Virus record (IMG/VR): IMGVR_UViG_3300033233_000056
Location: 1-47,405 of that record
Strand: one strand, 5' to 3'
Length of the DNA stretch: 47,405 nucleotides
Source: a virus
Shown here: piece after piece, positions 648-43,937 of the stretch
Numbering within the stretch: the stretch's first letter is position 1
How the letters are laid out: each line of letters begins with the position of its first letter
Made by a program: the position numbers and the translations under genes
The notes under the pieces: generated by a model
Database searches by the model: none
Told to the model about the DNA's origin: nothing
Seen by the model: only the letters and a program-made list of their open reading frames with translations

Positions 648-843
648 TGGCCTTCACCGCGACCCGTCCCGCCATCCGATCGGCCGCACGTCGGAGCGTG
701 TCGAAGATCGTGATCCACGCCGTGGCGAACAGCGTGGCGACCGACACGGCGAATTGCGCCGCCGTTATTACCAGCAGCGCGGCCGCCTCGATCAGGCGCC
801 GAGTGCGGCCTACCAAATCCCGGAACTCGTCCCGTGGATTCAT
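640..843 (-). CDS. Small membrane protein (67 aa)
   Basis: The product begins MNPRDEFRDL and has a hydrophobic segment of about 27 residues in its middle, between charged ends, so it is predicted to sit in the inner membrane. ATG at 843 has GGAGGG 6 bases upstream. It is the first gene after the leftward promoter at 957-985, which suggests early expression. It overlaps the following 32-residue membrane peptide by 8 bases. Membrane genes at this place often act in superinfection exclusion or host takeover, but nothing here shows which; function unknown. Confidence 0.65.
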   Translation of the reverse strand: MNPRDEFRDLVGRTRRLIEAAALLVITAAQFAVSVATLFATAWITIFDTLRRAADRMAGRVAVKANA

Positions 844-947
844 GGCATCCCTCCGTTTTTTTTGCCAATCGTGCCGGGGCCTTGCGCTTGCCACCTCGAC
901 CGGCGAGCCGCATCAGGCAGCGGGTAGGTGCCCGGGGCAATCGGCAT

Positions 948-985
948 TTGCATACACGTATAGCATGTCCATAAACCATATGCAA
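948..985 (-). promoter_or_regulatory. Leftward sigma70-type promoter inside a 7-bp inverted repeat
   Basis: On the minus strand there is TTGCAT (985-980), a 17-base spacer, then TATACG (962-957) preceded by TGC, an extended -10. TTGCATA (948-954) and TATGCAA (979-985) form an inverted repeat that covers both boxes, so a repressor could block it. It lies upstream of gene 640-843 and points into the long leftward operon. Confidence 0.55.
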
Positions 986-1017
986 GCGTTTTTTTCGCAT
1001 CCCGATATTTTTTTTCC

Positions 1018-1046
1018 TTGACGCCGAAAAAATCCTGTTGTATGGT
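1018..1046 (+). promoter_or_regulatory. Rightward sigma70-type promoter
   Basis: TTGACG (1018-1023), a 17-base spacer and TATGGT (1041-1046) give a good sigma70 match just ahead of the start at 1068. It is back to back with the leftward promoter at 957-985, an arrangement common at phage early control regions. Confidence 0.65.
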
Positions 1047-1067
1047 CCCACCAAGGAGGTGATGGAC

Positions 1068-1256
1068 ATGCCATTGCTCAACAAGACGGAACGGTACGTG
1101 CTCGAAAAGCAGGGAGGGTATTCGAGACAACTGATCGACTATTGGGACCGGCAAGGGTATATCCCCTCTCGGCACCTGCTGAGGGTGCGCGACTTGATAG
1201 GACGATCCATCGAGTCGCTGCTCGGGCAGGACGCCGCCGAAGAGGAGAAAAAATAA
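1068..1256 (+). CDS. Small helix-turn-helix-like regulator candidate
   Basis: This 62-residue protein follows directly after the promoter at 1018-1046. The middle (residues about 10-45) has the helix-rich, basic pattern of a small Cro-like DNA-binding domain, although the match is not clear enough to name a family. Start 1068 is 8 bases after AAGGAGG; an in-frame ATG at 1062 is too close to that site. Its stop overlaps the ATG of the next gene. Placed beside divergent promoters with an inverted repeat, it is a reasonable candidate for the regulator that binds there (inference). Confidence 0.55.
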   Translation: MPLLNKTERYVLEKQGGYSRQLIDYWDRQGYIPSRHLLRVRDLIGRSIESLLGQDAAEEEKK

Positions 1257-1432
1257 TGGGCCGCCCCCTGCTGACACTGAAGGCCCGGCGGCGGAACAGC
1301 CTACAATGCTACCTGACCGACGATGAGTACCACCGCGTCGGCCGGGTGGCGTACCGCAAGGGGAAGCACATGTCGGCGTGGTTCCGGGAGGTCATACTGC
1401 GCGAGGTCGAGAAGGAGGAGGTGTCACAATGA
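1256..1432 (+). CDS. Ribbon-helix-helix-like small protein (58 aa)
   Basis: The N-terminus is basic, followed by a beta-like segment (LQCYLTDDEYHRV) and two likely helices ending in a VILREVEKEE tail. That order, a strand followed by D/E-rich turn and two helices, resembles ribbon-helix-helix DNA-binding proteins. It starts in the stop of the preceding gene (TAATG) and ends in the ATGA overlap with the next, so it is translated in a coupled block. Likely a DNA-binding accessory or regulator; family not certain. Confidence 0.55.
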   Translation: MGRPLLTLKARRRNSLQCYLTDDEYHRVGRVAYRKGKHMSAWFREVILREVEKEEVSQ

Positions 1433-1644
1433 GGCCCTGCCCCTGCTGCGGGAAGGTGGTCGAGGAGAAGGACATCGTGCCGGACGGTACCTACACGTTC
1501 GGCAAGGCGATGCTCGTATCGTGGCGCTGCGGGTGTGGGACGAACCGCGCTGCCCGGTTCGAGGACGTCTCCCCCGCGCTCCGACGGGCGGCCATGCTCG
1601 CAGATATCGCGCTGCGACCGAAGAGCCCCGAGATGGCGGGATGA
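1429..1644 (+). CDS. Zinc-ribbon protein (71 aa)
   Basis: The product begins with CPCCGK and has a second knuckle, CGCG, about 40 residues on, giving a two-knuckle zinc ribbon. The start at 1429 has GGAGGAGG upstream and overlaps the preceding stop. The C-terminal half is helical and alanine-rich. Such small ribbons are common in phage early regions and their targets are unknown. A new promoter follows it at 1658. Confidence 0.6.
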   Translation: MRPCPCCGKVVEEKDIVPDGTYTFGKAMLVSWRCGCGTNRAARFEDVSPALRRAAMLADIALRPKSPEMAG

Positions 1645-1657
1645 GGCCATTTCCCCC

Positions 1658-1686
1658 TTGACACGGACCGCGGGGGATGGCAAAAT
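1658..1686 (+). promoter_or_regulatory. Rightward promoter for the early replication block
   Basis: A perfect TTGACA (1658-1663) lies 17 bases ahead of CAAAAT (1681-1686), a 4 of 6 match to the -10 box. About 150 bases of untranslated leader follow before the start at 1835; in 1687-1834 I see a short GGTGC/GCACC hairpin near 1769 and no gene. Confidence 0.5.
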
Positions 1687-1834
1687 GGGAAGTACCAAAT
1701 AACGCCGAACGGGATGGCAGCCCTTGGCGGAGATTCAAACAAATAACGAATGGCCTCCGGTGGGGATGGTGCTCCCGCACCAGTCTCCTTTGTCGCCGTC
1801 GTGCTGCCATCACCACGGCGGACGGAGGTATTAA

Positions 1835-2377
1835 TTGAATGATGAAATGAAAATTAAAAATTGGAAAAAGTTCCAGCATTTCCGTGACAGGAGGCCGCCG
1901 TGGATCAAATTATACCGAGACATCCTCGATGACATTGAATGGCATGAACTTGATCCTGTGGCGGCGAAGCACCTCGTGATGTTCTGGTTGATCGCGTCCG
2001 AGAGCGACGGCGTGCTTCCAGGTACCAAAGAATTGGCGTTTCGCCTTCGCTGTACAGAAAAGCAAATAGAAACAACAATTTCCAAAATCGGGCACTGGTT
2101 GGAACGCGATGATATCACGACGATATCAGCGCGATATCAAGATGATCTTCCAGAGACAGAGACAGAGACAGAGGTAGAGGTTGTGACCCGCCCGAAAGGC
2201 AACGGGCGGTTCACACCACCGACGCTTGAGGAAGTCACGGAATATTGCAAGGCCAGAGGCAACTCCGTTGACCCCGTAAAATTCCATGCATTCTACGCTT
2301 CCAAGGGATGGAAGGTTGGGAAAAACTCAATGACGGACTGGCGCGCCTGCGTAGTCACTTGGGAAAGGAACCGATGA
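1835..2377 (+). CDS. Phage replisome-organizer-like replication protein
   Basis: Residues about 15-85 match the pattern of the N-terminal domain of phage replisome organizers (WIKLYRDIL, then a long helix with FWLIASESDG and a winged-helix segment). Residues 130-180 carry a second small domain (PTLEEVTEYC ... WRACVVTWERN) often found at the end of phage replication initiators and DnaD-like proteins. It probably binds the phage origin and recruits host helicase. The start is a TTG at 1835, 6 bases after GGAGG; an in-frame ATG at 1847 is the alternative. Its stop overlaps the next start (ATGA). No phage helicase or polymerase is visible, so it would have to depend on host replication enzymes (inference). 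Confidence 0.7.
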   Translation: MNDEMKIKNWKKFQHFRDRRPPWIKLYRDILDDIEWHELDPVAAKHLVMFWLIASESDGVLPGTKELAFRLRCTEKQIETTISKIGHWLERDDITTISARYQDDLPETETETEVEVVTRPKGNGRFTPPTLEEVTEYCKARGNSVDPVKFHAFYASKGWKVGKNSMTDWRACVVTWERNR

Positions 2378-2724
2378 AGACAGAATATCCCGTATCGAAT
2401 ACACCATCAAAAGCATCGAGCACTTCATTCAAGGACCATCTCAATGCGTGGTTGGTTTCGGACTGCGAAAACAAACTCTGCATCGACGGCGGCGTAACCG
2501 TAGATGACGGCGAACACTCAATCTACTACCGATGCCCGCTTTGCAACCGATCCAATATCCCATCGGCGGCGATCTATGCTGGCCCATACGAGACATGGAC
2601 AGTAGAGGAAATGGAACGCAGGCTCAAAGACAGAAAAGACGTCTACTTCGACAAGAACTACCGTCACAAACGAGGGAAGGAAATTGTTTCCTTACTGCAA
2701 GAACTCACCGGGGCAAGGCGGTAG
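2374..2724 (+). CDS. Conserved-looking hypothetical with one CxxC
   Basis: This 116-residue protein has a Ser/Thr-rich N-terminus, then a zinc-ribbon-like middle with an early Cys pair in a CENKLC context and a CPLC knuckle. The C-terminal half is charged and helical. ATG at 2374 has AAAGGAA upstream and overlaps the stop of the replication protein. The position right behind a replication initiator suggests a helper role in replication or loading, but no family is recognised. Confidence 0.55.
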   Translation: MKTEYPVSNTPSKASSTSFKDHLNAWLVSDCENKLCIDGGVTVDDGEHSIYYRCPLCNRSNIPSAAIYAGPYETWTVEEMERRLKDRKDVYFDKNYRHKRGKEIVSLLQELTGARR

Positions 2725-2727
2725 CGG

Positions 2728-2916
2728 ATGCCCGCAGTAGCAGATGATCCCCTGCTTCCCCGCCTTCTCGCGTTACGCGACGAGGTGCGGTTGTTCCTTG
2801 ACGGGTACACGTCCCGCAGTGCGGCGCAGGACGGTATGGCGCTGGCGCGGCTAAAAAGAGCGTTGGAGGTGGCAGATGGCGAAGGCGGCGATGACAGCGG
2901 TGAGGGCGATTCGTGA
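2728..2916 (+). CDS. Small helical acidic-tailed protein (62 aa)
   Basis: The protein is mostly helical (LLPRLLALRDEVRLFLDGY), then ends in a Gly/Asp/Glu-rich tail. It begins 3 bases after the preceding stop. There is no recognisable domain. Its end overlaps both a small frame at 2876-2977 and the open frame of the HNH gene. Confidence 0.45.
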   Translation: MPAVADDPLLPRLLALRDEVRLFLDGYTSRSAAQDGMALARLKRALEVADGEGGDDSGEGDS

Positions 2917-2977
2917 TGAGTGCGGAATCCCGCCAGTCGGAAACGAAGGTGGGCAGACTATGGCAGAGAATGCATGA
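2876..2977 (+). CDS. Possible 33-aa peptide
   Basis: An ATG at 2876 has GGAGGT 7 bases upstream and opens a 33-codon frame (begins MAKAAMTAVRAIRDECG) that ends at TGA 2975-2977. It overlaps the end of 2728-2916. The good ribosome binding site and normal-looking start are the only evidence; another short frame (ATG 2974) is coupled to its stop. Either could be non-coding leader sequence in front of the promoter at 3034. Confidence 0.3.
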   Translation: MAKAAMTAVRAIRDECGIPPVGNEGGQTMAENA

Positions 2978-3539
2978 ATTTCGAACGGGAAGGCACCTAC
3001 AATCGACGATCGGGTGGTCAACGTACTTTTTTATTGACATGCGTTGCAATGCATTGTATCTTGTTTCTATGGCTGGAGGAACTCATAGGCACCTGGCACT
3101 TTACGGGAGCGTTGCGATAGAGAGACAATACTGCGTTGATTGTCATGGGTACGCATTCATTTTAGATGGCAAAATGGCTTGTTGCGGGGCTAATGCGGAT
3201 GGCGTTACAAGAAAAACCCGCAGGATGATAGAAGCGGAATCCAAGAAACGGTCGCCAAAATGGAGTTACCGCAAGAAACAAATGGAACGGCAAGACGGCA
3301 AATGTCTATACTGCGGGCTACCGTTAGACGGATATGTTTTCAGAAATGGAAAAGCGTCACGGATAAAGATTCATTGGGACCACGTAGTACCATACTCGTA
3401 TTCACAAAACAACCACGATACCAATTTTGTGGCATCTTGTCATGTATGCAACCTGATAAAGAGTGACATGGTTTTCCAAACATTGGAGGAAGCGAGATCG
3501 TATGTACAAATTAAAAGAGAAGAAAAGGGGTATTTGTGA
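2916..3539 (+). CDS. HNH endonuclease with N-terminal zinc ribbon
   Basis: The C-terminal part has a classic HNH fold: CLYC, then WDHVVPYS, an Asn-rich segment and CHVC, ending NLIKSDM. These supply the two zinc-binding Cys pairs and the catalytic His of an HNH nuclease. Ahead of it is a CVDCHGY ... ACCG pattern that looks like a zinc ribbon. The true start is uncertain. The open frame runs back to 2913/2916, but a strong promoter lies inside at 3034-3062, and the first 50 residues look non-protein-like; a start near ATG 3068 is plausible. The gene is AT-richer than its neighbours, as are many HNH homing genes, and it may be a recently acquired mobile gene. Confidence 0.75.
   Translation: MSAESRQSETKVGRLWQRMHEFRTGRHLQSTIGWSTYFFIDMRCNALYLVSMAGGTHRHLALYGSVAIERQYCVDCHGYAFILDGKMACCGANADGVTRKTRRMIEAESKKRSPKWSYRKKQMERQDGKCLYCGLPLDGYVFRNGKASRIKIHWDHVVPYSYSQNNHDTNFVASCHVCNLIKSDMVFQTLEEARSYVQIKREEKGYL
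3034..3062 (+). promoter_or_regulatory. Promoter with a 10-bp palindrome in its spacer
   Basis: TTGACA (3034-3039), 17 bases, then TATCTT (3057-3062). The spacer contains the perfect palindrome CAATGCATTG (3047-3056), a possible repressor site. Transcription would begin near 3069, about at the candidate start of the HNH gene. Confidence 0.55.
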
Positions 3540-3687
3540 GGAATGTGGTAAAAGTTACATTGTATCTCGTCCTTGGCAAAAGTTCTGTGATGGCAAATGC
3601 CGATGGGCTAATTATGATAAAAGGCATCCTCGCGTGCACAATCGGACAAATAATCTGAATGATATTTCAGAGGGAGGGGACCGATGA
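3502..3687 (+). CDS. Phage zinc-ribbon protein (61 aa)
   Basis: The layout CEEC, then SYIVSRPWQKFC, then a CxxxC-type knuckle followed by RWANYDKRHPR is a common small phage zinc ribbon in which the second knuckle is followed by a basic helix. It probably binds nucleic acid. ATG at 3502 lies in the end of the HNH gene, 12 bases after a GGAGGA. Upstream in-frame ATG 3463 would fall deep inside HNH, so the short form is preferred. AT-rich like the HNH gene. Confidence 0.65.
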   Translation: MYKLKEKKRGICEECGKSYIVSRPWQKFCDGKCRWANYDKRHPRVHNRTNNLNDISEGGDR

Positions 3688-3857
3688 AGGCGTTATCGCC
3701 TGAAATGCTCGCCATGTATCTGCGTATCCAGCGTGCTGGACCGATCGGCTACTATTTCCCGGCGACGGAGTACCGGACGGCGAAGGCACTTGAAAGGCGG
3801 GGCGAGATCACCATTGAGGGCCGATGTGTGGCGAGGATAAAGGAGGGTAAATTATGA
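3684..3857 (+). CDS. Small winged-helix-like protein (57 aa)
   Basis: The frame from ATG 3684 (good GGGAGGGGA site) gives a 57-residue product containing YRTAKALERRGEITIEG. A helix with TAKALERRG followed by a beta hairpin is the pattern of the recognition helix and wing of small winged-helix proteins; this is a weak structural guess. It overlaps the previous gene and the next by 4 bases each (ATGA), so it is well embedded in the operon. Confidence 0.5.
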   Translation: MKALSPEMLAMYLRIQRAGPIGYYFPATEYRTAKALERRGEITIEGRCVARIKEGKL

Positions 3858-4081
3858 ACGTCGAATTTGCCTACAGCATCGGGCAGTCTGTGAAGGTAAT
3901 TCCAATTGGGATGATCGGCATGGTTGATTCGATGTCTCTTGACATGAACGGTAAACAATACCGTGTTATCTATTGGAATGATGGGGTCAGAAACGTTGTG
4001 TGGATGTACGATTGGGAAATTGAAGCAATTGACGGTCGTTGTATAGCGAGGGCAAAGGAGGGGAAGCATGATGATATTTAA
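3854..4081 (+). CDS. Hypothetical beta-rich protein (75 aa)
   Basis: The sequence alternates hydrophobic and polar residues (IGQSVKVIPIGMIGMVDSM ... YRVIYWNDG) and looks like a small SH3-like beta barrel, which in such short phage proteins often reads as a binding module. Its C-terminal GRCIARAKEGK resembles the end of the preceding gene product (GRCVARIKEGK), so the two genes share a short homologous tail, perhaps from a local duplication around the ribosome binding site. Function unknown. Confidence 0.55.
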   Translation: MNVEFAYSIGQSVKVIPIGMIGMVDSMSLDMNGKQYRVIYWNDGVRNVVWMYDWEIEAIDGRCIARAKEGKHDDI

Positions 4082-4268
4082 GGGTTTGAATAAAATAACA
4101 TGGCATGATCCTGAATTTGACTGGTATTATTACAACGTATTAAAGGAATGCGAATGCGGATGCAGTATAAAACTCAAGGGAGCAAACGACCCAGAAACGG
4201 GGGGCAAGCATGAAGGAAATGTATTTTGGGTAAGGGTAGACGAAATAAAGAAGATTGAAAAGAAATGA
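4068..4268 (+). CDS. Hypothetical protein (66 aa) with Cys cluster
   Basis: The middle carries a CECGC cluster that could hold a metal, between an aromatic-rich segment (FDWYYYNVL) and a lysine-rich tail. It starts inside the end of 3854-4081 with GGAGGGG upstream and overlaps the VRR-NUC gene start by 4 bases. No family recognised. AT-rich compared with the genes downstream. Confidence 0.5.
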   Translation: MMIFKGLNKITWHDPEFDWYYYNVLKECECGCSIKLKGANDPETGGKHEGNVFWVRVDEIKKIEKK

Positions 4269-4681
4269 CGAAGGCCAAGCGGAGGGCGGACTCTATGTGT
4301 GCTATGAAGGTCAAAGTCCCCGAACGCGCGGTGTTATCTCAAGTAATTCAATACCTTCGGCTGCGTGGCTGCCTTGTGTTCCGGATGAACACCGGCGCGA
4401 ATGTGTTCCAGAACACGGACGGCCGGCGGCGGTTCGTCCGGTTCGGGACGCCGGGCATGGCGGATGTGCTGGCGTTTACCACACGGTCCGTCATCTGGGT
4501 CGAGTGCAAGTCCAGCACGGGCAGGCAGTCGGACGCGCAGCGGGTGTTCCAGCGGCAGGTGGAGGAGTACGGGCATACCTACGTACTGGCCCGGTCCGTG
4601 GGCGATGTCATGCGGTTGTTCGAGGACGGGACCGGGCAGATGGAATTTGGCGGCGTGTCCCGCACGGGAGGGGGGCGATGA
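4265..4681 (+). CDS. VRR-NUC domain nuclease
   Basis: A compact 138-residue protein with the PD-(D/E)XK core of the VRR-NUC family: an N-terminal helix (residues 20-35), the FGTPGMADVLA motif with Asp67, then IWVECKSS with Glu80 and Lys82, and a helix starting with the Q of GRQSDAQ. Stand-alone VRR-NUC enzymes in phages are thought to cut branched DNA such as Holliday junctions or flaps. Here it sits in the replication block and could resolve replicative intermediates before packaging. Start ATG 4265 overlaps the previous gene; ATGs at codons 11 and 14 are alternatives. Confidence 0.85.
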   Translation: MTKAKRRADSMCAMKVKVPERAVLSQVIQYLRLRGCLVFRMNTGANVFQNTDGRRRFVRFGTPGMADVLAFTTRSVIWVECKSSTGRQSDAQRVFQRQVEEYGHTYVLARSVGDVMRLFEDGTGQMEFGGVSRTGGGR

Positions 4682-4839
4682 GGTCGGTCCGCGTGAGGTA
4701 CTACGAGGGGTTTTGGTTGGTGGACGAGGGGACCGGAACCGAGACGCTGCCGGTGGTCCCCGGGGCGCTGGAGGACGCCATACGGGCGCGTATCGATCAG
4801 GCGGGGGATACCGATCCCGAGACGGCGCCGGAGGGATGA
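4678..4839 (+). CDS. Hypothetical small protein (53 aa)
   Basis: Begins MRSVRVRYYEGFWLVDEG and ends in an acidic tail. It overlaps the upstream VRR-NUC gene and the downstream gene by 4 bases each. GC-rich codon use matches the VRR-NUC gene. No domain recognised; the N-terminus reads as a short beta hairpin. Confidence 0.5.
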   Translation: MRSVRVRYYEGFWLVDEGTGTETLPVVPGALEDAIRARIDQAGDTDPETAPEG

Positions 4840-5195
4840 GGAGGGACGGCCTCCGGGCGTATCTGGAGATGGCCCGGGAGTGCTACGAACTTGCCGCGAC
4901 GCCTCCACCCGCCGGCGTGTATCGGCAGGCCGTCGATGAGCGGCCGCAGGCGGGGGGCGGCTTGCCAAGCACGTCGCGTATGGTGCTGTTGCAGATAGGC
5001 ATTGATGTGAGCCGTATTGTCGCCAGGCACCTGGCGGCGATCGAGCGGGACCACGGGCGGCGGCGCGCGGAACGGTTTTGCGAATGGCTACTCACGGGCG
5101 ACATGTCGAGGTTGTCGTATTGGCACAGGATGGAGGTTTGCGCCGACAGGAGGCGGCTTGCGCGGGCGGTATGGCGGTACAGGTTTGGGGGATAG
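4836..5195 (+). CDS. Hypothetical helical protein (119 aa), last gene of the early block
   Basis: The protein is basic and helical throughout, with a C-terminal segment (LSYWHRMEVCADRRRL) that could be a DNA-contacting helix. It closes the rightward early operon: its stop touches the strong hairpin at 5195-5220. Genes at this place often control the switch to late expression, and the size and basic charge would allow that, but there is no clear sequence match and the idea is only positional. Confidence 0.5.
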   Translation: MRRDGLRAYLEMARECYELAATPPPAGVYRQAVDERPQAGGGLPSTSRMVLLQIGIDVSRIVARHLAAIERDHGRRRAERFCEWLLTGDMSRLSYWHRMEVCADRRRLARAVWRYRFGG

Positions 5196-5220
5196 GCCGG
5201 CGGTGTGCGTTCCGCCGGCC
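5195..5220. terminator. Bidirectional hairpin terminator between convergent operons
   Basis: GGCCGGCGG (5195-5203) pairs perfectly with CCGCCGGCC (5212-5220) around an 8-base loop. It separates the rightward early genes from the leftward cassette array, so it can stop transcription from both sides. On the plus strand it is followed by a short T-rich run (GTTGTTATT). Confidence 0.7.
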
Positions 5221-5226
5221 CCGTTG

Positions 5227-5451
5227 TTATTCGATTCGTTGTCCGTCGCGCCAGACACCGGCGCGTGTTTCGTTGGCCGCGAGCGCCTGCTCGGTGGTCG
5301 CCCATCCGATGTACAGGCCGCTCGTGTCGGCGGTCACTACCGCCAGGATGGTATCGCCTGGATAGGCGATGGATAGGACGCGGGCGGTCCGGTTGGCATC
5401 ATCAGAGGCCAAGGCGTAAACCCCGTATATTTTTCGCGTTATCGTGCTCAT
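5227..5451 (-). CDS. Cassette gene 6: hypothetical protein (74 aa)
   Basis: The last gene of the leftward cassette array. The product looks like a small beta-rich fold (KIYGVYALASDDANRTARVL ... GWATTEQALAANETRAG) with no Cys and no membrane segment. The order, strand then helix at ATTEQALA, is seen in several other members of the array (for example 6778-6963), so they may share a fold. Leader copy F lies upstream but lacks the GNRA hairpin. Function unknown. Confidence 0.6.
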   Translation of the reverse strand: MSTITRKIYGVYALASDDANRTARVLSIAYPGDTILAVVTADTSGLYIGWATTEQALAANETRAGVWRDGQRIE

Positions 5452-5496
5452 TTCCCTCCCCTAAATGATTATAGGATGCGCGGCCCCCCTGTGCGA
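5452..5496 (-). promoter_or_regulatory. Leader repeat copy F (partial)
   Basis: The whole gap between two genes. It holds the conserved core GGGGGCCGCGCATCCTA (minus strand, about 5488-5472), here running into TATAAT, then GGGGAGGG ahead of ATG. The second, GAGA-loop hairpin is missing. Confidence 0.7.
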
Positions 5497-5829
5497 TCAA
5501 TTGCTGCCGAGTCGGACCCAGTCGTGGTACTCCTCCACGCCGTCACGATGCGATATGCAGGTGCCGGATCCGACAACCTCGACGCCAGCGATTTTCAGGA
5601 TTTTGTTCCCGCCCCATACCGTCCACGGCTCATCGGGGTCGGCGTGGCGCGAGCGCCAGATCCCAAAAGGCTCGGTTGGGGTAGGCGCCCGGAAAGGCCC
5701 GTATACGATGTACTCCAGATACACGCCATCATCATCGCTCCACACTTCCCAGTGCCCTGGCCCACGGCGGGCGCGGGCGGTCGAGACCTGCCTGACCGCA
5801 TCGTCCAATCGCTTCTTGAGCTCGCTCAT
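5497..5829 (-). CDS. Cassette gene 5: hypothetical protein (110 aa)
   Basis: Begins MSELKKRLDDAVRQVSTARA, a helix, followed by a beta-rich body with many aromatic residues (HWEVWSDDDGVYLEYIVYG, PWTVWGGNKIL). It is the largest protein of the array. The start at 5829 has a purine-rich GGGGGAAAAAG just upstream; an open frame continues further back but lies in the leader repeat. No known family; soluble, acidic-to-neutral small protein. Confidence 0.6.
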   Translation of the reverse strand: MSELKKRLDDAVRQVSTARARRGPGHWEVWSDDDGVYLEYIVYGPFRAPTPTEPFGIWRSRHADPDEPWTVWGGNKILKIAGVEVVGSGTCISHRDGVEEYHDWVRLGSN

Positions 5830-5884
5830 CTTTTTCCCCCTTCTCCGCGTTAAGGATGCGCGGCCCCCGTGGTTTCTGGCGCCT
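5830..5884 (-). promoter_or_regulatory. Leader repeat copy E (first hairpin only)
   Basis: Contains the core GGGGGCCGCGCATCCT with its stem CCGCG/CGCGG preserved by a different loop end (loop CATCCTTAA), then AAGGGGGAAAAAG before ATG. The GAGA-loop hairpin is absent. Confidence 0.7.
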
Positions 5885-6121
5885 TCAGCGGCAACCGCGG
5901 ATCTCAATATCGCCGAAGATGTTATGGATATGAGTTATACCAGCGGCCCGGAGGATTGCGGCGCACTCATTTATGCGCTCCCGTGCGTTTTTGCCAAAAG
6001 CCGGATCGGCCCATGCCGTCCGGTATAGGTCGAGATAATCCATCGCCGCCATCCTGAGTTCCCGGTTCTCGATCCCACGGGCATCTACGATGCCGCCGTT
6101 CATCACCACCAGCGTTTTCAT
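5885..6121 (-). CDS. Cassette gene 4: hypothetical protein (78 aa)
   Basis: The product begins MKTLVVMNGGIVDARG and is rich in helix (MAAMDYLDLYRTAWADPAFGKNARERINECAAIL is one stretch seen at residues 25-57). The start is coupled to leader copy D. It has no recognised domain; the single Cys and lack of a metal motif argue against a zinc protein. Function unknown. Confidence 0.6.
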   Translation of the reverse strand: MKTLVVMNGGIVDARGIENRELRMAAMDYLDLYRTAWADPAFGKNARERINECAAILRAAGITHIHNIFGDIEIRGCR

Positions 6122-6198
6122 ATCTCACGCCTTCCTTTCCGGTCCGGCGCTCTCGCGCCGCCCCGCGTGTAGGATGCGCGGCCCCCTGGGGTTGTGAG
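6122..6198 (-). promoter_or_regulatory. Leader repeat copy D (both hairpins)
   Basis: Hairpin 1 is CCGCG/CGCGG around CATCCTACA. Hairpin 2 is GGCGC-GAGA-GCGCC (6159-6146). A GGAAAGGAAGG ribosome binding site follows, then the start at 6121. Confidence 0.8.
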
Positions 6199-6393
6199 TC
6201 ATCCCTCGATGCGGTACCATCCCGGCGCGACTTTGCGGGCGCCGGGGAAGCGCCGGGCGACCTCGCGGTCCATGTCCTCCATGTCCCGGTGCCACCCGGT
6301 CCACGCGCACTCGCCATCCGGGAGATCCACCCGGCCGCAATACATTGCGCCGGAGATGTCTCCCCTCGCCCGGCCGTAGCTGCTGTTCATCAT
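6199..6393 (-). CDS. Cassette gene 3: hypothetical protein (64 aa)
   Basis: The product begins MMNSSYGRARGDISGAMYCG and has a helical middle (RDMEDMDREVARRF) followed by a short beta hairpin (KVAPGWYRIEG). This helix-then-hairpin ending occurs in other array members too. The two Met codons at the start leave the exact first residue open. No family recognised. Confidence 0.6.
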   Translation of the reverse strand: MMNSSYGRARGDISGAMYCGRVDLPDGECAWTGWHRDMEDMDREVARRFPGARKVAPGWYRIEG

Positions 6394-6455
6394 GTCCTTC
6401 TCCTTTCCGGCGCTCTCGCGCCGCTCCGCGCGTAGGATGCGCGGTCCCCCGTGGT
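6394..6455 (-). promoter_or_regulatory. Leader repeat copy C (both hairpins)
   Basis: Hairpin 1 has an extended stem CCGCGC/GCGCGG around ATCCTAC. Hairpin 2 is GGCGC-GAGA-GCGCC (6422-6409). A GGAAAGGAGAAGGAC ribosome binding region follows. It fills the whole space between genes. Confidence 0.8.
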
Positions 6456-6713
6456 TTACAGGTCTCTACGCCGGGCCACGTCGATGACTTCGACGTGGTG
6501 GGCGGCGGGCCGTTTCCGGAGATGCCCGACGAAGTTGGAATAATCCCCAGCGAACAACCCCGCATCCCGCAACAGTTTGTGTGCCGTTACGAGATACTGA
6601 TCACCGTATCCATAGGTAACCCCACTACGCAACTCACTCCCGTTGCAATTGACCAACACGGTATGGTATTGATTCCCATACTGGTCTCTCCATCTTTTGC
6701 CTATGATCAACAT
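6456..6713 (-). CDS. Cassette gene 2: hypothetical protein (85 aa)
   Basis: An aromatic, beta-rich N-terminal half (KRWRDQYGNQYHTVLVNCNG) is followed by a helix (VTAHKLLRDAGLF) and a basic C-terminus. It is AT-richer than the two genes on either side. The start ATG at 6713 is directly behind leader copy B. No known domain. Confidence 0.6.
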   Translation of the reverse strand: MLIIGKRWRDQYGNQYHTVLVNCNGSELRSGVTYGYGDQYLVTAHKLLRDAGLFAGDYSNFVGHLRKRPAAHHVEVIDVARRRDL

Positions 6714-6777
6714 GTCCTACTCCTTTCCGGCGCTCTCGCGCCGCCCCGCATGTAGGATGCGCGGCCCCCCGGGGTGT
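6714..6777 (-). promoter_or_regulatory. Leader repeat copy B (both hairpins)
   Basis: Hairpin 1 is CGCAT/ATGCG around CCTAC, and hairpin 2 is GGCGC-GAGA-GCGCC (6742-6729). The ribosome binding region reads GGAAAGGAGTAGGAC; its GTAGGA is the exact complement of TCCTAC in the loop of hairpin 1, so the two could pair. Confidence 0.8.
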
Positions 6778-6963
6778 CTATCGGACCATGTAGTAGGTGT
6801 CATCCAACCGGCAGATCCGGTATTCTGGTCCCGCCTCGCTATCGTCGATGTACCGCACCGGTCCTTCCCACTCCGTGAGGACGGCCTCGGCCTCCTCGCG
6901 GGCGTTGTATTCGCCCGAAATCCAGCACCACATGTTTCCCCTCTTTACCTGGATTCCGTACAT
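6778..6963 (-). CDS. Cassette gene 1: hypothetical protein (61 aa)
   Basis: The first gene of the leftward array. Strand-helix-strand pattern: MYGIQVKRGNMWCWISGEY, then a helix (REEAEAVLTEW), then strands ending YRICRLDDTYYMVR. This resembles very small alpha/beta phage proteins of unknown function. Start at 6963 is set by GAAAGGAG behind the GAGA-loop hairpin; a longer frame upstream reads through the leader and is not credible. A possible promoter lies at 7048-7076. Confidence 0.6.
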   Translation of the reverse strand: MYGIQVKRGNMWCWISGEYNAREEAEAVLTEWEGPVRYIDDSEAGPEYRICRLDDTYYMVR

Positions 6964-6995
6964 TGTGTCCTTCTCCTTTCCGGCGCTCTCGCGCC
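6964..6995 (-). promoter_or_regulatory. Leader repeat copy A (second hairpin and RBS only)
   Basis: GGCGC-GAGA-GCGCC (6995-6982) followed by GGAAAGGAGAAGGAC and ATG. As the first gene in the array, it lacks the upstream core with the CATCCTA loop. Confidence 0.8.
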
Positions 6996-7047
6996 ATGTA
7001 TTTGCCAGTATTCTTTGCATCCCGTGTGCCAATTTAAAAAATAATTG

Positions 7048-7076
7048 GTTTTACTCATAACCACCTTAAATATCAA
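7048..7076 (-). promoter_or_regulatory. Candidate leftward promoter for the cassette array
   Basis: On the minus strand TTGATA (7076-7071), 17 bases, then TAAAAC (7053-7048). Transcription would start near 7041, giving a leader of about 80 bases before the start at 6963. Confidence 0.45.
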
Positions 7077-7182
7077 TGCTTTACAAATACACGCCTTAAT
7101 AGCACAATTTCCCAACTGCCGTAAATTGTCTGGTAAAAATACCAAGATTTTGTCGGAATGTAATAATATCAAGTATTTACGT

Positions 7183-7241
7183 GTGACAAAAATTGTCACA
7201 CGCACTGACAAAAAATGTCACTCAGTGACAAAAATTGTCAC
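7183..7241. repeat. Three operator-like palindromes spaced two helical turns apart
   Basis: Three 17-base near-palindromes of the form GTGACA-N5-TGTCAC begin at 7183, 7205 and 7225 (the middle one starts CTGACA). The spacers are AAAAT, AAAAA and AAAAT. Spacing of 22 and 20 bases puts all three on the same face of DNA, as expected for cooperative repressor sites or origin iterons. Confidence 0.75.
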
Positions 7242-7334
7242 TCGGAATAAAATAATATGCGCTATCGCCACCTTAAATCGCTCAAAATGGCGTGTATATA
7301 TATATAAAAAACAAAAACCAGCGAAAGGCACAAT

Positions 7335-7517
7335 ATGACGGCAAGGCATTGCCAGACATGTCCAAGATACAAATCCTGCTCAAGCGCATGCCGACCCGTC
7401 CTCGCAGACCTCCGCCGCATCGAGCGTCCACGCCGCAAACGCCGGCCGGAAATCGTCTATCTGCACGATATAGATGGCAGACACGCCAACGACATCAGTA
7501 GGATAATCTATGGATAA
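7335..7517 (+). CDS. Small Cys-rich basic protein (60 aa)
   Basis: The N-terminus has four Cys in the order CQTC ... CSSAC, likely a zinc knuckle, followed by a strongly basic segment (RRIERPRRKRRPE) and a short hydrophilic tail. ATG 7335 has GAAAGG upstream. The end overlaps the start of the small terminase gene, so the two are co-translated. It may bind DNA near packaging start, but that is only suggested by its neighbour. Confidence 0.55.
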   Translation: MTARHCQTCPRYKSCSSACRPVLADLRRIERPRRKRRPEIVYLHDIDGRHANDISRIIYG

Positions 7518-8118
7518 CACGGGCAACCCCGTAAAAAAGCAAAAAAAATCGTATCGTAAAACGGACCCGCGAGGACGCCGCATCGGCACACTCGTCGCCG
7601 CGCTCGCCTCCGGCGCCACGCTCACCGACGCCGGCCGAGCGGTAGGCCTGTCCCCTGCCTCCGTCCACAGGCTCGCCTCCCGAGACGACATACGCCGGGC
7701 AATCGACGAGCAGGCGAGAGCGCTGGCGGCACTGACGCCTACTGCCGTCGATTGCGTCGCAGGCATACTGGTAGCAGGACAGCGCGCACTCTCCCGAGAG
7801 CTCGCCGATAACGGGCAGCGGACTACTGACGACTACAGGCCAATCGAGGCGAGGCGCGCAAACGATATCAGACTCGTCGGATATACACGAGACGCGGCAA
7901 CAACTGTACTGCAAACGGCAGGGATCGCCCCGACTCATATGCAGGCCCCCGCCATCCAGGCGCTGATCGTGACTACCGAGCAGGCGCTATCCCCGATCAT
8001 CGGGCGCCTGCTGTCGGCGTCAGCGAGCGCCGCGAGGGAGCGGGATATCGATCCCGAGTGGGAGGACGTGACGCAGGACATGGCGGATGGTGGGGACGAT
8101 GAGCCTGTGGATAAGTAG
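7510..8118 (+). CDS. Terminase small subunit (likely)
   Basis: After a basic N-terminus, residues about 22-58 form a helix-turn-helix (LVAALASGATLTDAGRAVGL, SPASVHRLASRDDI) of the type that opens phage small terminases, followed by a long helical, alanine-rich oligomerization region. The C-terminal tail is acidic, the usual large-subunit or portal-contact part. Small terminases recognise the packaging site on phage DNA and load the large subunit. The large subunit is 5 kb downstream (13072), separated by inserted fibre-like genes, which is unusual. An alternative is a general HTH regulator. Confidence 0.6.
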   Translation: MDNTGNPVKKQKKSYRKTDPRGRRIGTLVAALASGATLTDAGRAVGLSPASVHRLASRDDIRRAIDEQARALAALTPTAVDCVAGILVAGQRALSRELADNGQRTTDDYRPIEARRANDIRLVGYTRDAATTVLQTAGIAPTHMQAPAIQALIVTTEQALSPIIGRLLSASASAARERDIDPEWEDVTQDMADGGDDEPVDK

Positions 8119-9472: not shown

Positions 9473-10258
9473 ATGCGGAACATCATCTGCCGAGTTTTAC
9501 AAGCCCTCGTCATCCTCGCGGTTGCGGCTTCGTTCGCGAAGGCAGACAACTTTATGTACTTTAGGAAGTCAGTAGGGGGGTGTCCCGCAGGGTCTTATGC
9601 CGGGGGGGACCAAGAAACTTTCGAGTGTAGTTCGATTGATTTCCAGACTTATGCGAACGGGACGAACAAGCACACAGTGGTAGATAATACTGCTGGGGGG
9701 TTCAGCATATACGATTCCGGACTTTCTCATGGCGGAGTACACTCGATGGGAGTGGATGTATCTGCCACCACAAGGGCTTATGTAGAAACGGATCTTGGGG
9801 TGCCCGACACAACTTGTAGTTGGGCGTTCTGGGTGTATCTTCCTTCCTTCGGTTCAAGCACATGGAAGACTATAATTATTAATGAAGCGAAACTTAGCAG
9901 TTCTGAGCCTGGGTTGGACCCGTATCAGTCAAGAGTAGTCTTTAAAAGGACGGACCCGACTTATTATCTGATATTGTATAACGCTTCTGGCACAAATCAA
10001 AGTGTTACGATAACTACTGTAGGCGCGTGGTACGAAGTGCAGGTAGATTATACCTATGGCGGGAATATAGTAATGTCGGTTTGGGATTCTGTGGGAACAC
10101 TTATTGGCACCGCAACTGTGGCGCAAACCGGTTCTGGCGGGGTTAGGTATATATATCATGGGAATTTCAGTACCGGGTCAGCCATGTGGGATTCTCCGAA
10201 AATGTATATCGACGACCTTAAGTTCAACCCCAATGGGGGGAATGTGTATGGTCATTAG
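9473..10258 (+). CDS. Secreted LamG/concanavalin-like protein
   Basis: Residues 1-24 are a signal peptide (ICRVLQALVILAVAASF, then AKA). The mature protein is a beta-sandwich by pattern: aromatic strands (CSWAFWVYLPSF, WYEVQVDYTYGGNIVMSVWD) and a late MYIDDLKFNP strand typical of LamG/concanavalin-like lectin folds, where the IDDL segment ends the domain. Likely binds glycans outside the cell or at the tail tip. ATG 9473 has TAGGGA 5 bases upstream; ATG 9458 in the end of the previous gene adds 5 residues. AT-rich. Confidence 0.65.
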   Translation: MRNIICRVLQALVILAVAASFAKADNFMYFRKSVGGCPAGSYAGGDQETFECSSIDFQTYANGTNKHTVVDNTAGGFSIYDSGLSHGGVHSMGVDVSATTRAYVETDLGVPDTTCSWAFWVYLPSFGSSTWKTIIINEAKLSSSEPGLDPYQSRVVFKRTDPTYYLILYNASGTNQSVTITTVGAWYEVQVDYTYGGNIVMSVWDSVGTLIGTATVAQTGSGGVRYIYHGNFSTGSAMWDSPKMYIDDLKFNPNGGNVYGH

Positions 10259-12104
10259 ATTAGTATTATTTATATCAATAATGTTTCTTCCAAGCATAGC
10301 ATTCTCGGGCGACATTTATATTACCGATACAGCATCTGGTCTGGATACTGGATCAGACTGCGCGAATGCGCATTCTGCTGCATGGTTCAATGCCAATGCC
10401 GTCGGGGGGAACACCTATCATCTATGCGGCACGTTTACCGGAACGGCGGGTTCTATGAAGCTGAACATTCCAGCATCTGGAACAGCGGTAGACAATCTTC
10501 TGACCGTTGTTTTTGAGAATGGCGCCGTGCTTACTGCTCCTTACTGGGGCAGCACATCAGCGGGGGCGATTACCGCTTCCAATAAGTCATATATTCTAAT
10601 CGATGGGAATAATACTGGTGTTATCCAGAACACCGCCAATGGAACGTATCTCGCAAACAAACAAGCGAGTTCGGGAATTTACCTAAACGCTCCAAGCAAT
10701 ATCGAAATTAAGCGGCTCACGATTAAGGATATTTATGCTAACGGTGGGAGTAGCCCTGATGCGACGGATACCAGTGGATCAGAGACAGCAGCGATACGGG
10801 TGGATGGGGATGCATCTAATCTTACTATAGATAACAACACACTCTCCTCCGCACGCTCCGTAATTCGGATTAGTTACGACGGGACGCACTTGAGTAATGT
10901 TAATATCCATAACAATCTGATTACTGATATGTGCTGGGGGGTCTCTATCGGCGGTGGGACGTCTGGAGCCACGTCTACAGGAGTGAACATTTATTCTAAT
11001 GAGTTCACAAACTGGGACAATTGGGTATGCCCTGCGAACGCTGCGTATTGTAATAACAAAACAGATGCTTATCATACAGATGGATTTATAGGATACGGAG
11101 TTCGCGGTTCGCCGTTGAATGCGAGTATATACAACAACTATTTTCATGGGACACTTGGGCCTGCATCGCCTACGGCGTTCGTCTATTGCACCTATGGTGG
11201 CGGAACATCCGGGAGTGGATCTACTTGTAAAATCTACAACAACCTGTTCGTGGAGGAATCTGGAAGGAAAGCAAACTGGATAATTTCGACGGGGACAAAT
11301 ACGTCAAACCATGAAATCTATAACAACACGCTTGTGGGGCAGGACACTACAGCGGGTACAGCGATGATGTTAGGCGGTACGGGGTTGAAGGTAAAAAACA
11401 ACATAATAAAGAACAAGGCGTTTGGTATCGGTTCATACGAGACGGTCCCGTCTAATGTGTTCGCAAGTACATCAGATATTGACTATAACATCTGGGTTCT
11501 TCAATCAGGCAGTAACTTCTACTTCAACGACGGTGGTACTTTCTACACGATGGCAACATGGCAGGCATTAGGGTACGACTCGCATAGCAAGACTACTGAC
11601 CCGTTGCTGGATGCATCATATGCTCCGCAATTCGGTTCCCCCGCCATTGATAGCGGCACAGACCTGTCGACGTCCTTCACCACCGACTATCGTGGCACTT
11701 CCCGTCCCCAAGGTGCCGCATGGGACATCGGTGCCTATGAGTACACCTCGGGCGACACCACCCCCGACGCCTTCTCTTTCACCGACAATGCGGGGGTCGC
11801 CCTCTCCACGATCATCTATTCTGACTCCATCCAAGTGACCGGCATCGACAACACGGCCACCCTCGCGCTGACGGGTACTGGGTGCGAATACAAGATTAAC
11901 GCCGGATCATGGGCCACCGCGAACGACAACGTGGCCCTGAATGACAATGTGGCTCTGCGAGTCACGTCCTCGGGTTCCTGCGGTACAGATACCTCCTGCA
12001 CGTTGACCATCGGTGGCGTATCGGATGTATGGCATGTGACAACGCTGGCCTGCATACCGAGATTCCGGGGGGTAAGTATAAACGGAGGAGCGAGGATAGA
12101 ATGA
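10248..12104 (+). CDS. Secreted right-handed beta-helix protein (pectate-lyase-like)
   Basis: A signal peptide (MVIRLVLFISIMFLPSIAFS) is followed by about 450 residues of parallel beta-helix: repeated Asn-rich turns such as IYNNYFHG, IYNNLFVE and IYNNTLVG. The helix ends with a SPAIDSGTD ... RGTSRPQGAAWDIGAYEY motif, a common closing segment of secreted beta-helix proteins. The last 110 residues are an Ig-like domain (TPDAFSFTDNAGV ...). Base use changes sharply near 11620, from AT-rich helix to GC-rich ending, as if two pieces were joined. Beta-helix proteins in phages are tailspikes or depolymerases that cut surface sugars; no catalytic set could be assigned. Start ATG 10248 is preferred because it opens the signal peptide. 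Confidence 0.75.
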   Translation: MVIRLVLFISIMFLPSIAFSGDIYITDTASGLDTGSDCANAHSAAWFNANAVGGNTYHLCGTFTGTAGSMKLNIPASGTAVDNLLTVVFENGAVLTAPYWGSTSAGAITASNKSYILIDGNNTGVIQNTANGTYLANKQASSGIYLNAPSNIEIKRLTIKDIYANGGSSPDATDTSGSETAAIRVDGDASNLTIDNNTLSSARSVIRISYDGTHLSNVNIHNNLITDMCWGVSIGGGTSGATSTGVNIYSNEFTNWDNWVCPANAAYCNNKTDAYHTDGFIGYGVRGSPLNASIYNNYFHGTLGPASPTAFVYCTYGGGTSGSGSTCKIYNNLFVEESGRKANWIISTGTNTSNHEIYNNTLVGQDTTAGTAMMLGGTGLKVKNNIIKNKAFGIGSYETVPSNVFASTSDIDYNIWVLQSGSNFYFNDGGTFYTMATWQALGYDSHSKTTDPLLDASYAPQFGSPAIDSGTDLSTSFTTDYRGTSRPQGAAWDIGAYEYTSGDTTPDAFSFTDNAGVALSTIIYSDSIQVTGIDNTATLALTGTGCEYKINAGSWATANDNVALNDNVALRVTSSGSCGTDTSCTLTIGGVSDVWHVTTLACIPRFRGVSINGGARIE

Positions 12105-41570: not shown

Positions 41571-42278
41571 TTATCTCCCCAAATACCTTCGGATTATTTC
41601 CGCTTGTGAGCACAGTGCCGCGTCCCGTGCGGCATCCCCTGCGGCGGCCCACGCGGCATCCCCTGCGGCGGCCCACGCGGCGGCCCGTGCAGCGGCCCAT
41701 GCGGCCACCGCTGCGTCCCGTGCGGCATCCCCTGCGGCCACCGCCGCGTCCCGTGCGGCATCCCCTGCGGCGGCCCACGCGGCATCCCCTGCGGCGGCCC
41801 GTGCGGCGGCCCATGCTGCGTCCCGTGCGGCATCCCCTGCGGCGGCCCGTGCTGCGTCCAGTGCGGCATCCCCTGCGGCGGCCCATGCGGCGGCACATGC
41901 TGCGTCCAGTGCGGCATCCCATGCGGCGGCACATTCTTGTTCTGTTATCATTCCGTTTGCATAGTCTCTCGCCGCCCTGATCGCCTTCCGGGGCCGGTCG
42001 TCTTTTGGATAGATTTTTTCGAAAATCGGCAGCACGGCCTCCGCGAAGTCTGCCGCCATGAGGCGCATTACCCTGTCGCCGTCAGGATGTTTTTCTGTAG
42101 CACGAAGTGCCCACAGGCAATCATCCACACCGTTGCAATCCAGGATGTCGAGCAGGTTGATCTTGTCATCATCCCCCCATTTGGGTCCAAGTCTCTCCAC
42201 GAGGTGCTCATAGCGATCCTTACACGCTCTGAACTTCCGCAGCCTGTACAACGAAGTGACAAGAACGATCTTCTCCAC
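41571..42278 (-). CDS. Alanine-rich Imm5-like paralogue A (longest repeat)
   Basis: 235 residues, GTG start at 42278 behind GGGGAGATCC. The conserved N-terminal half (to RPRKAIRAARDYANG) matches the other paralogues. It is followed by about 115 residues of near-perfect alanine-rich helix repeats, units such as AAGDAARDAAWAAARAA, and the shared ending LCSQAEIIRRYL. This copy has the most uniform repeats; others have degenerate ones. The DNA repeat is GC-rich and stop-free in other frames, so opposite-strand frames there are shadows. Function unknown; label from family resemblance only. Confidence 0.8.
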   Translation of the reverse strand: MEKIVLVTSLYRLRKFRACKDRYEHLVERLGPKWGDDDKINLLDILDCNGVDDCLWALRATEKHPDGDRVMRLMAADFAEAVLPIFEKIYPKDDRPRKAIRAARDYANGMITEQECAAAWDAALDAACAAAWAAAGDAALDAARAAAGDAARDAAWAAARAAAGDAAWAAAGDAARDAAVAAGDAARDAAVAAWAAARAAAWAAAGDAAWAAAGDAARDAALCSQAEIIRRYLGR

Positions 42279-42301
42279 GGATCTCCCCCTCTCTTAGGTG
42301 A

Positions 42302-42949
42302 TTACCTGGTGAGATGCCTTCGGATTATTTTCGCCTGTGTGCATAGCGCCGCGTTGTGCGAGGCGGACCATGAAGTGTACGTAACGGCGTCCTTTATGCC
42401 TATATCCTCCGTGGTGGCAGTATCTGAGGCGACCATTGCGTTCTCCACGAAAGCATCTACGCTCCAATATGCAGATTCCAGTGCGGCAATCCATGCGGCT
42501 TTCCCTACGGAAGCCCAAGCGGCGGCCTTCGCAGCGGAGTATGCGGCCCAACTGACGGGCCGTAGCCGTACTGCGCCGTTGGCCGCGTCCGATGCAGAAT
42601 AAAACTCCCCAACGGATATCTTCCCCGCCACGTAGTCCCTGACCGCCTTGATCGCGAGTCGCGGCCGCATGTCGTCGGGGTAGGCCCTTTCAAAAAATGG
42701 CAATACCCCCTCCGCGAAGTCCGCGGCCATCAGGCGCATTACACTGTCGCCATCGGGATGCCTCACCGTGGCGCGAAGCGCCCACAGGCAGTCGCTTACC
42801 CCGTTGTGCTCAAGAATGTCGAGCAGGTTGATCTTGTCCTCGTCTCCCCATCCCGGGCCAAGTTTCAACACCAAGTAGTCGTAACGCTCCCGGCACGCAC
42901 GGAACTTCCGCAGTCTGTGCAACGAAGTGACGAGCACGATCTTCTCCAC
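42302..42949 (-). CDS. Alanine-rich Imm5-like paralogue B (most diverged)
   Basis: 215 residues with GTG start at 42949, set by GGAGGGGAAGG. The conserved N-terminal half differs from the other copies at many positions (RERYDYLVLKLGPGWGDEDK). The C-terminal half has the fewest alanine repeats and contains segments found in other copies: VRLRPVSWAAYSAAKAAAW as in D, and ATTEDIGI as in C. Ends CTQAKIIRRHLTR. It lies directly after the hairpin and pentamer tract 1. An open frame continues upstream through the tract but is not coding. Confidence 0.8.
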   Translation of the reverse strand: MEKIVLVTSLHRLRKFRACRERYDYLVLKLGPGWGDEDKINLLDILEHNGVSDCLWALRATVRHPDGDSVMRLMAADFAEGVLPFFERAYPDDMRPRLAIKAVRDYVAGKISVGEFYSASDAANGAVRLRPVSWAAYSAAKAAAWASVGKAAWIAALESAYWSVDAFVENAMVASDTATTEDIGIKDAVTYTSWSASHNAALCTQAKIIRRHLTR

Positions 42950-42971
42950 GGACCTTCCCCTCCTTTTGTGT

Positions 42972-42998
42972 GGGGGGGCAGTAGTTCCATGCCCCCCC
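42972..42998 (-). other. GC-rich hairpin between tract 1 and paralogue B
   Basis: GGGGGGGCA (42972-42980) and TGCCCCCCC (42990-42998) form a perfect 9-bp stem with a 9-base loop. It lies just before the ribosome binding site of paralogue B on the minus strand and may act as a terminator-like or processing element. Confidence 0.7.
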
Positions 42999-43006
42999 GC
43001 GGGCTT

Positions 43007-43139
43007 GCCTTGCCTTGCCACACCGAACCCAGCCCGGCCCCGCCGCGCCATGCCCGGCCCCGCCTTGCCGCGCGCCGCCAAGCCAATCCAGGCCTAACCA
43101 TGCCCAGCCACGCCGAGCCCAGCCCCACCGTGCCCCGCC
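43007..43139 (-). repeat. Pentamer tract 1 (GGC every 5 bases)
   Basis: On the plus strand GCC occurs in strict 5-base register from 43007 to 43139: 27 positions, of which 22 are GCC and the rest one-base variants (ACC, TCC, GCG). The two bases between are free. The minus strand, which is transcribed, therefore carries GGC-N-N repeats. It fills the gap between 43147-43743 and paralogue B. Confidence 0.85.
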
Positions 43140-43146
43140 ATGACTT

Positions 43147-43743
43147 CTAATCCCAAGCCTCGACCATGAACTTGCCGAACACCCCGCGGAAGGTTCCCAA
43201 CCCCAAAGCACGGCCACCTTCCTCGAACAGATTTTGAACCTCGACTTCCTTGATCTCCTTGTTCGGATACAATGTGAGCGCGAATTCCACGGCCCACGGC
43301 AACGGAACCACGGGCCGCTCCTTGGGGTTGGGAATCCCCTTGTCGAGACGCGCCACGGCATGATGGACGTACACCCCGCTCTTGGGGTCCACGTTGTCAA
43401 CCATCTTGCCGAACACGATCGGTTCGTTCCCCCGCAGCAAGGGGATGAACACAGGCGCGATGGACACGAACGAGAGACATGCGTTAGCGATGTCCTTGTA
43501 CTGCCGCTTATCACGCAACCTTTTCGGAGCGGAATTTGTGTTGTGGGCCGTAAGAAACGACATAATGTTGAGTGCCGGAATCCCAATAACCCTCGAATCG
43601 CCCTTTTCGAAGTACAGTTTTTGCCACGGTTCCAGTTTTGTCTTGTTGTCTCCGGCGTACCTGTCGAACATGATTTCCGTCACTCCGCAAAGCCGTACCC
43701 TCCTTGTGATGATGTCCGTGGGCTTGCTGACCTTCACGCTCAT
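43147..43743 (-). CDS. Unknown protein bracketed by pentamer tracts (198 aa)
   Basis: An alpha/beta protein: ITRRVRLCGVTEIMFDRYAG, then WQKLYFEKGDSRVIGIPALN, a conserved-looking middle (FVSIAPVFIPLLRG) and an ending with LFEEGGRALGLGTFRGVFGK and FMVEAW. The last segment, an A-G-x-x-x-G-x-G-x-x-R pattern with a closing GKFxVxxW, resembles the end of a widespread phage protein family of unknown function found near recombination genes; I am not certain. Codon use is normal and the start (ATG 43743) has AAAAGGAGGGACG. Pentamer tracts lie on both sides, so gene and tracts may move together. Confidence 0.65.
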   Translation of the reverse strand: MSVKVSKPTDIITRRVRLCGVTEIMFDRYAGDNKTKLEPWQKLYFEKGDSRVIGIPALNIMSFLTAHNTNSAPKRLRDKRQYKDIANACLSFVSIAPVFIPLLRGNEPIVFGKMVDNVDPKSGVYVHHAVARLDKGIPNPKERPVVPLPWAVEFALTLYPNKEIKEVEVQNLFEEGGRALGLGTFRGVFGKFMVEAWD

Positions 43744-43765
43744 TTCTCGTCCCTCCTTTTAGTTG

Positions 43766-43853
43766 GCCTTGCCATGCCTTGCCTTGCCTTGCCCCGCCAT
43801 GCCCCGCCCGGCCCGGCCTTGCCCTGCCCCGCCCAGCCCAGCCACGCCAGGCC
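43766..43853 (-). repeat. Pentamer tract 2 (GGC every 5 bases)
   Basis: On the plus strand GCC stands at every fifth base from 43766 to 43853: 18 consecutive units with no exception. The intervening two bases vary. It lies upstream of gene 43147-43743 on the transcribed strand. Confidence 0.9.
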
Positions 43854-43866
43854 ACGCGACACATAA

Positions 43867-43937
43867 GCCCCCGCCGGTGTGGTTGTCACGCCGACAGATA
43901 TGGGAGAAGAACCTCCTCTTTTTATTCCGGCGGGGGC
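43867..43937 (-). other. 11-bp inverted repeat behind the SSB gene
   Basis: GCCCCCGCCGG (43867-43877) and CCGGCGGGGGC (43927-43937) are perfect complements 49 bases apart. The enclosed part contains a smaller GGAG/CTCC hairpin and a T/A-rich run. It sits between the SSB stop and pentamer tract 2, mirroring the hairpin beside tract 1. Confidence 0.7.

Follow-up and report, generated by a model that had tools for sequence, protein, structure and literature searches.

Pseudoknots are known to take part in phage translational control. In T4, the gp32 operator is an intercistronic pseudoknot of ~28 nt, followed by an unstructured leader that holds A-rich repeats and the ribosome binding site (PMC535899). 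Cluster K mycobacteriophages carry the SAS, a 13-bp sequence, GGGATAGGAGCCC, present in 11-19 copies and placed 3-7 bp from the start codon like a ribosome binding site; SAS and ESAS are found almost exclusively in cluster K, and neither a pseudoknot nor a spread across hosts has been described for them (PMC3203893). An earlier note on the DNA studied here had named SAS/ESAS as the known parallel of a repeat lying before small phage genes. The parallel holds as an analogy, but the position, size and distribution of the repeat are different.

The window, that is the whole stretch of DNA analyzed, is a virus contig of 47,405 bases that encodes a Mu-gpT-like major head protein. Between ~7000 and 5200 its minus strand carries six small ORFs, A to F, of 60-110 aa, with five gaps between them; a family match was absent for five of the six (A, C, D, E and F). 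As the earlier note had stated, every gap contains the repeat: CCGCGCATCCT is present in all five (positions 5473, 5853, 6171, 6434 and 6754), preceded by 5 or 6 G, which an additional A separates from it in copy C. The common core described in that note was therefore confirmed for all gaps but not as an exact one, as copy C reads GGGGGA-CCGCG and copy E reads CATCCTTAA. Copies E and F had both been called partial; copy F lacks the first hairpin and is probably degenerate, but copy E keeps it. A covariance model built from relatives, which includes one row from the window (copy B), found copies D, E, B and C in the window and nothing else (Table 1). The second hairpin, GGCGC-GAGA-GCGCC, was matched exactly before genes A to D, as had been reported, and none of 100 shuffles reached that number of matches. 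In all four cases it adjoins the Shine-Dalgarno sequence on the 5' side. Together with its Shine-Dalgarno sequence it was not found in other viral contigs, and a blastn search of phages and plasmids with the whole array gave no match. The unit of both hairpins combined is specific to this phage.

Table 1. Genes and repeat elements of the six-gene array in the window.
Feature	Position	Strand	Remarks
Small gene A	6778..6963	(-)	no known family
Small gene B	6456..6713	(-)	phrog_6246, E=2e-7, unknown function
Small gene C	6199..6393	(-)	no known family
Small gene D	5885..6121	(-)	no known family
Small gene E	5497..5829	(-)	no known family
Small gene F	5227..5451	(-)	no known family
Pseudoknot element copy B	6746..6769	(-)	stem CCGCG/TGCGG with one G-U; covariance model E=4e-7
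Pseudoknot element copy C	6426..6450	(-)	extra A between GGGGG and stem; loop CATCCTACG; E=7e-4
Pseudoknot element copy D	6163..6186	(-)	exact consensus; E=7e-9
Pseudoknot element copy E	5845..5868	(-)	loop CATCCTTAA; E=1e-7
Copy F	5473..5489	(-)	5' half only, without 3' arm; missed by covariance model
Hairpin 2 before gene A	6982..6995	(-)	exact match
Hairpin 2 before gene B	6729..6742	(-)	exact match
Hairpin 2 before gene C	6409..6422	(-)	exact match
Hairpin 2 before gene D	6146..6159	(-)	exact match

Several other features of the window were recorded. Upstream of gene A, at 7184-7240, three TGACA-N5-TGTCA palindromes with a spacing of 20-22 bp overlap promoter-like hexamers, and these are probable operators of the promoter driving the six-gene array. 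Genes for a YqaJ-type exonuclease and an ERF annealing protein, a phage recombination module, lie at 44299-46149. Region 41571-47401 encodes at least four paralogous minus-strand proteins that start with MEKIVLVTSLYRLRKFRAC or a close variant and have variable alanine-rich tails; one of them matches Pfam Imm5_like, and the group looks like a tandemly duplicated family. When the unassigned region 10104-12104 was used as a query, no relatives were found.

The first half of the repeat had been taken for a plain hairpin, and paired changes in its stem had been offered as the argument for a working RNA structure. All copies in the window have an identical 5' arm, CCGCG, and only the 3' arm and the loop vary; since two-sided changes are absent there, the argument fails on the window alone. 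The structure itself was nonetheless borne out across relatives, in which two stem pairs and one pseudoknot pair covary over ~200 sites. The consensus is a 24-nt RNA motif, 5'-N1GGGG-NNGCG-CAUCN5-(4 to 8 nt, mostly A/C)-CGCN'N'-3', which on comparative grounds is predicted to fold not as a hairpin but as an H-type pseudoknot, with the pairs N1-N5, G2-C4 and G3-U3 in addition to a five-pair stem. Stem pairs 1 and 2 covary freely, with CG, GC, AU, UA and UG all occurring (variants CC/GG, CT/AG, CA/TG, GC/GC, GA/TC, GT/AC, AT/AT, AA/TT, AC/GT and TC/GA), and pairs 3-5 remained constant as GCG/CGC in scans with opened arm positions, one with pairs 1, 2 and 5 free and another with pairs 2-4 free.

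Pairing of base 1 with loop base 5 was suggested by the Corynebacterium phages, in which CGGGG and the loop CATCG replace GGGGG and CATCC. Of 212 sites whose stem is intact, 210 have this pair (G-C 145, A-U 40, C-G 22, U-G 2, U-A 1; two misfits), as against 13 of 68 controls that lack GGGG, where it arises by chance. A scan in which loop base 5 was not C and base 1 was left free gave A-T 43, C-G 15, T-G 2 and three misfits, two of which have broken stems and resemble chance matches in coding sequence. In the crossed structure 98.7% of cells were paired, compared with 81.7% in shuffled and 21-62% in slid versions. The loop is 9-13 nt long, never shorter, and its length varies only 3' of CAUCN, as expected of a loop that spans helix 1 in an H-type pseudoknot. 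Because G2-C4 and G3-U3 are invariant, we infer these two pairs, and N1-N5 is the one pseudoknot pair proven by covariation. The stem alone is predicted to be no more stable than shuffled sequence. All pairs are kept in a total of ~240 distinct contexts, and the predicted fold has the two crossed helices and compensatory changes that characterize phage H-type RNA pseudoknots.

Those contexts place the first half of the repeat well outside this genome, as the earlier note's proposal called for. When IMG/VR was scanned with the core and a 3' arm that was defined only loosely, 96 stretches were returned; most of them have a strictly conserved GGGGGCCGCGCATCCT[A/T]CACGCGG that lies after a stop codon and ahead of an ATG. 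The carriers are viral contigs, Corynebacterium phages (thirteen C3PO-group records, all from phages of C. vitaeruminis), one Stenotrophomonas phage (Silvanus) and one Methanosarcina virus (MetMV). The deposited circular record of MetMV holds the same gene series twice (genes 754-7994 and 59883-67123), so that its two element copies are probably one. Whole records have 1-5 copies each, clustered and nearly always in one direction. Reversed-pattern controls gave no matches in 18 records, and dropping the G run from the pattern yielded chance-like sites, mostly with mismatched stems. Among 84,980 prokaryote genomes, scanned for CC-stem variants only, there were 22 matches, seven of them consensus-like. 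Five of six contigs checked had phage head, portal, primase, replication-initiation, DNA-binding or Lar-type neighbors, and none of those families was recognized on the sixth; a prophage survey of the Desulfovibrio family found the motif in one of 119 genomes, the seed itself. The motif is rare in bacterial genomes and mostly lies near phage genes there. Rfam 15 gave no gathering-score match for the window and five loci, and nothing relevant at E<=10 or E<=5. The motif was also absent from the literature searched by sequence and by concept, a scope beyond which subscription papers and outside preprints lay. This conserved and overwhelmingly viral RNA family seems not to have been described before, and its breadth and its rule of intercistronic placement are apparently new as well. 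A functionless local duplication in one phage, which the confinement of hairpin 2 to this phage and the partial copies A and F might suggest, has next to no probability, since the first half is conserved with covariation in many unrelated viruses; for the pseudoknot part this reading is already contradicted.

The placement of the element relative to genes is regular. A co-directional ORF ends just upstream at 209 of 217 sites. Its stop codon is separated from the element by 8 nt at the median and by no fewer than 5 at any site, with 15 nt or less at 173 sites. The downstream ATG follows at a median of 19 nt and opens an ORF with a median of 89 codons. Measured against uncurated control ORFs, A content is raised in the leader 3' of the element (0.45 vs 0.31, p=3e-16), and the start regions downstream are less structured (p=5e-14). 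The element is present in both SD-rich and SD-poor phages, and a role as a replacement of the Shine-Dalgarno sequence was rejected as it occurs with and without one. A stop-codon readthrough signal was also rejected, since frame 0 was no more open than the others and the frames of the next ATG were spread 35/44/57. An intrinsic terminator is not supported either, as downstream of the stem there is a purine and A-rich sequence with no U tract; none of the terminator-like minus-strand sites lies at an element. Since the pseudoknot is compact, keeps its unpaired bases invariant, is A-rich on its 3' side and sits before start codons, it could also be a very small ligand-sensing aptamer, a pseudoknot-type riboswitch of preQ1-I-like size. 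This is very unlikely, given that the element lies mid-operon after a stop codon, has no Rfam match and would control genes without a common pathway.

An association with tRNA genes was rejected as a general rule (13 of 198 loci vs 8 of 193). A cluster of 12-14 tRNA genes on one 197-kb contig is immediately preceded by five copies of the element, and one other contig is similar. On a 76-kb contig, at ~5880-7090, several genes are followed by intergenic hairpins that resemble the T arm of a tRNA (GGGGGATCGAATCCCCC is one of them), and ARAGORN found no tRNA there; the pseudoknot copies of this phage mostly have 11-nt loops.

Different small genes follow the element, as the earlier note had anticipated. 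The 88 downstream proteins fall into 70 clusters and, in a family scan of one representative per cluster, include RecT, Cas4/exonuclease VIII, ParB, methyltransferase, HTH and RHH proteins, none of them dominant. One junction in Ceetrepovirus (Corynebacterium) phages keeps its upstream gene and its element, and what comes next is gp49 in C3PO, gp48 in Cruella and gp47 in Darwin; Stickynote has a plain GC hairpin at that junction and an element one gene earlier. Other stop codons in the Corynebacterium phages are followed by a GC palindrome around CCCGGCCTAGCCGGG that lacks a U tract, and it is this palindrome that replaces the element in Stickynote. Among related site pairs, 13 were homologous on the upstream side only and 13 on the downstream side only. 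Of the proposed gene-cassette system, the variety of downstream genes thus stands, but a gene gained together with its leader does not agree with the near-fixed distance to the upstream stop codon and with swaps on both sides. Judged from these comparisons, the element marks mosaic junctions at which phages exchange small accessory genes, most of them without a known family.

As neighboring genes swap at the element and recombination genes are near, it might be a DNA-level site, such as a recombination boundary, an attC-like cassette junction or a palindromic operator. We consider this highly improbable, as the crossed N1-N5 pair lies outside the palindrome and covaries, which a palindrome in double-stranded DNA does not predict and which excludes a palindromic operator. 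In addition, the element keeps to gene orientation and a minimal distance from the stop codon, and no recombinase family is shared among 32 phages, although the element may help recombination as a side effect. The tight placement just after the stop codon could instead reflect mRNA decay or processing, with the pseudoknot stopping a 3'-5' or 5'-3' exonuclease or marking a cleavage site so that cistron lifetimes are separate. A GC hairpin that lacks a U tract replaces the element at the Stickynote junction, and the distribution is host-independent, which fits a self-contained fold; both are consistent with this. It is nevertheless an unlikely explanation, as simple hairpins suffice against 3'-5' exonucleases and the hosts involved probably do not have one common 5'-3' exonuclease.

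No protein family is common to the element phages, the most widespread being present in 9 of 32, and a shared phage partner protein was therefore rejected for this set; the distribution across distant hosts points to a function without a host-specific partner. A protein would be needed if the element were an operator of the T4 gene 32 type, on which a phage single-strand-binding or annealing protein nucleates at the pseudoknot and spreads over the A-rich leader, shutting off the downstream early gene once single-stranded DNA is saturated. The layout is the same as that of the T4 gp32 operator (PMC535899). The leader here is likewise A-rich and open, as judged with an imperfect control, several element phages carry annealing proteins or exonucleases (RecT, ERF, YqaJ), and phage single-strand-binding proteins diverge so fast that a shared family need not be visible. 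We still find such an operator, and the shut-off that goes with it, rather improbable: gp32 regulates its own gene, but here the downstream proteins are highly diverse, and the T4 and RB69 operators differ in sequence despite close single-strand-binding proteins, in contrast to the element, whose unpaired bases do not vary from host to host.

We tentatively favor, with reservations, the reading that the element is an intercistronic insulator and loading module acting in cis at translation. Its chief rivals are the gp32-type operator and the role in mRNA decay or processing. Its placement on the gene strand, a few bases after the stop codon, suggests that the next gene is probably read independently of its neighbor. 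Folded ~8 nt behind the stop codon, the element would stay folded while the upstream ribosome terminates and would keep that ribosome from running on, and the A-rich, weakly structured stretch after it would serve as an entry site of its own for the downstream gene. Translation of that gene would then be independent of the neighbor, which would explain the exchange of unrelated small genes on either side, and a specific phage partner protein would seemingly not be needed. Against this, ordinary hairpins could insulate too, so that the almost complete conservation of GGGG, GCG/CGC and CAUC suggests that the motif binds a specific ligand or adopts a special three-dimensional fold, and with 1-5 copies per phage most junctions do without the element. 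It is possible, if doubtful, that a self-contained pseudoknot module, functional in both bacteria and archaea with no dedicated protein partner, makes phage genes portable by insulating the translation of cistrons. A spread over the viruses of distant hosts, one of them archaeal, is unusual for a cis-regulatory RNA. At 24 nt, and present in isolated Corynebacterium and Stenotrophomonas phages, the element is directly open to tests of structure and function, and if translational insulation is true it would be a useful part for gene circuits.

Like the element, SAS/ESAS are short one-orientation repeats before diverse small non-structural genes and beside inverted repeats (PMC3203893); the element differs from them in its sequence, in a start codon that lies farther away and in not being restricted to cluster K. 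The STAXI motif (RF01728) is a repeated pseudoknot RNA near genes of DNA-handling proteins (PMC2864571), but has tandem units and UUCG loops, and cmscan gave no STAXI match in the element loci. The theta (HDV-like) ribozymes of gut phages are also small pseudoknot RNAs that are widespread in phages (PMC10879173); unlike the element, which has neither a tRNA association nor an Rfam match, they lie beside tRNAs and cleave themselves. Integron attC sites share with the element a hairpin after the stop codon at which genes are exchanged, but the element is only 24 nt long, no common integrase was found in the 32 phages, and the crossed pairing supports RNA. Like the T4/RB69 gene 32 operator, the element is a small intercistronic phage pseudoknot with an unstructured A-rich leader. 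That operator, however, has another sequence, serves one gene in one phage group and binds its own product, whereas the element is found with many genes and hosts and has near-invariant loop bases.
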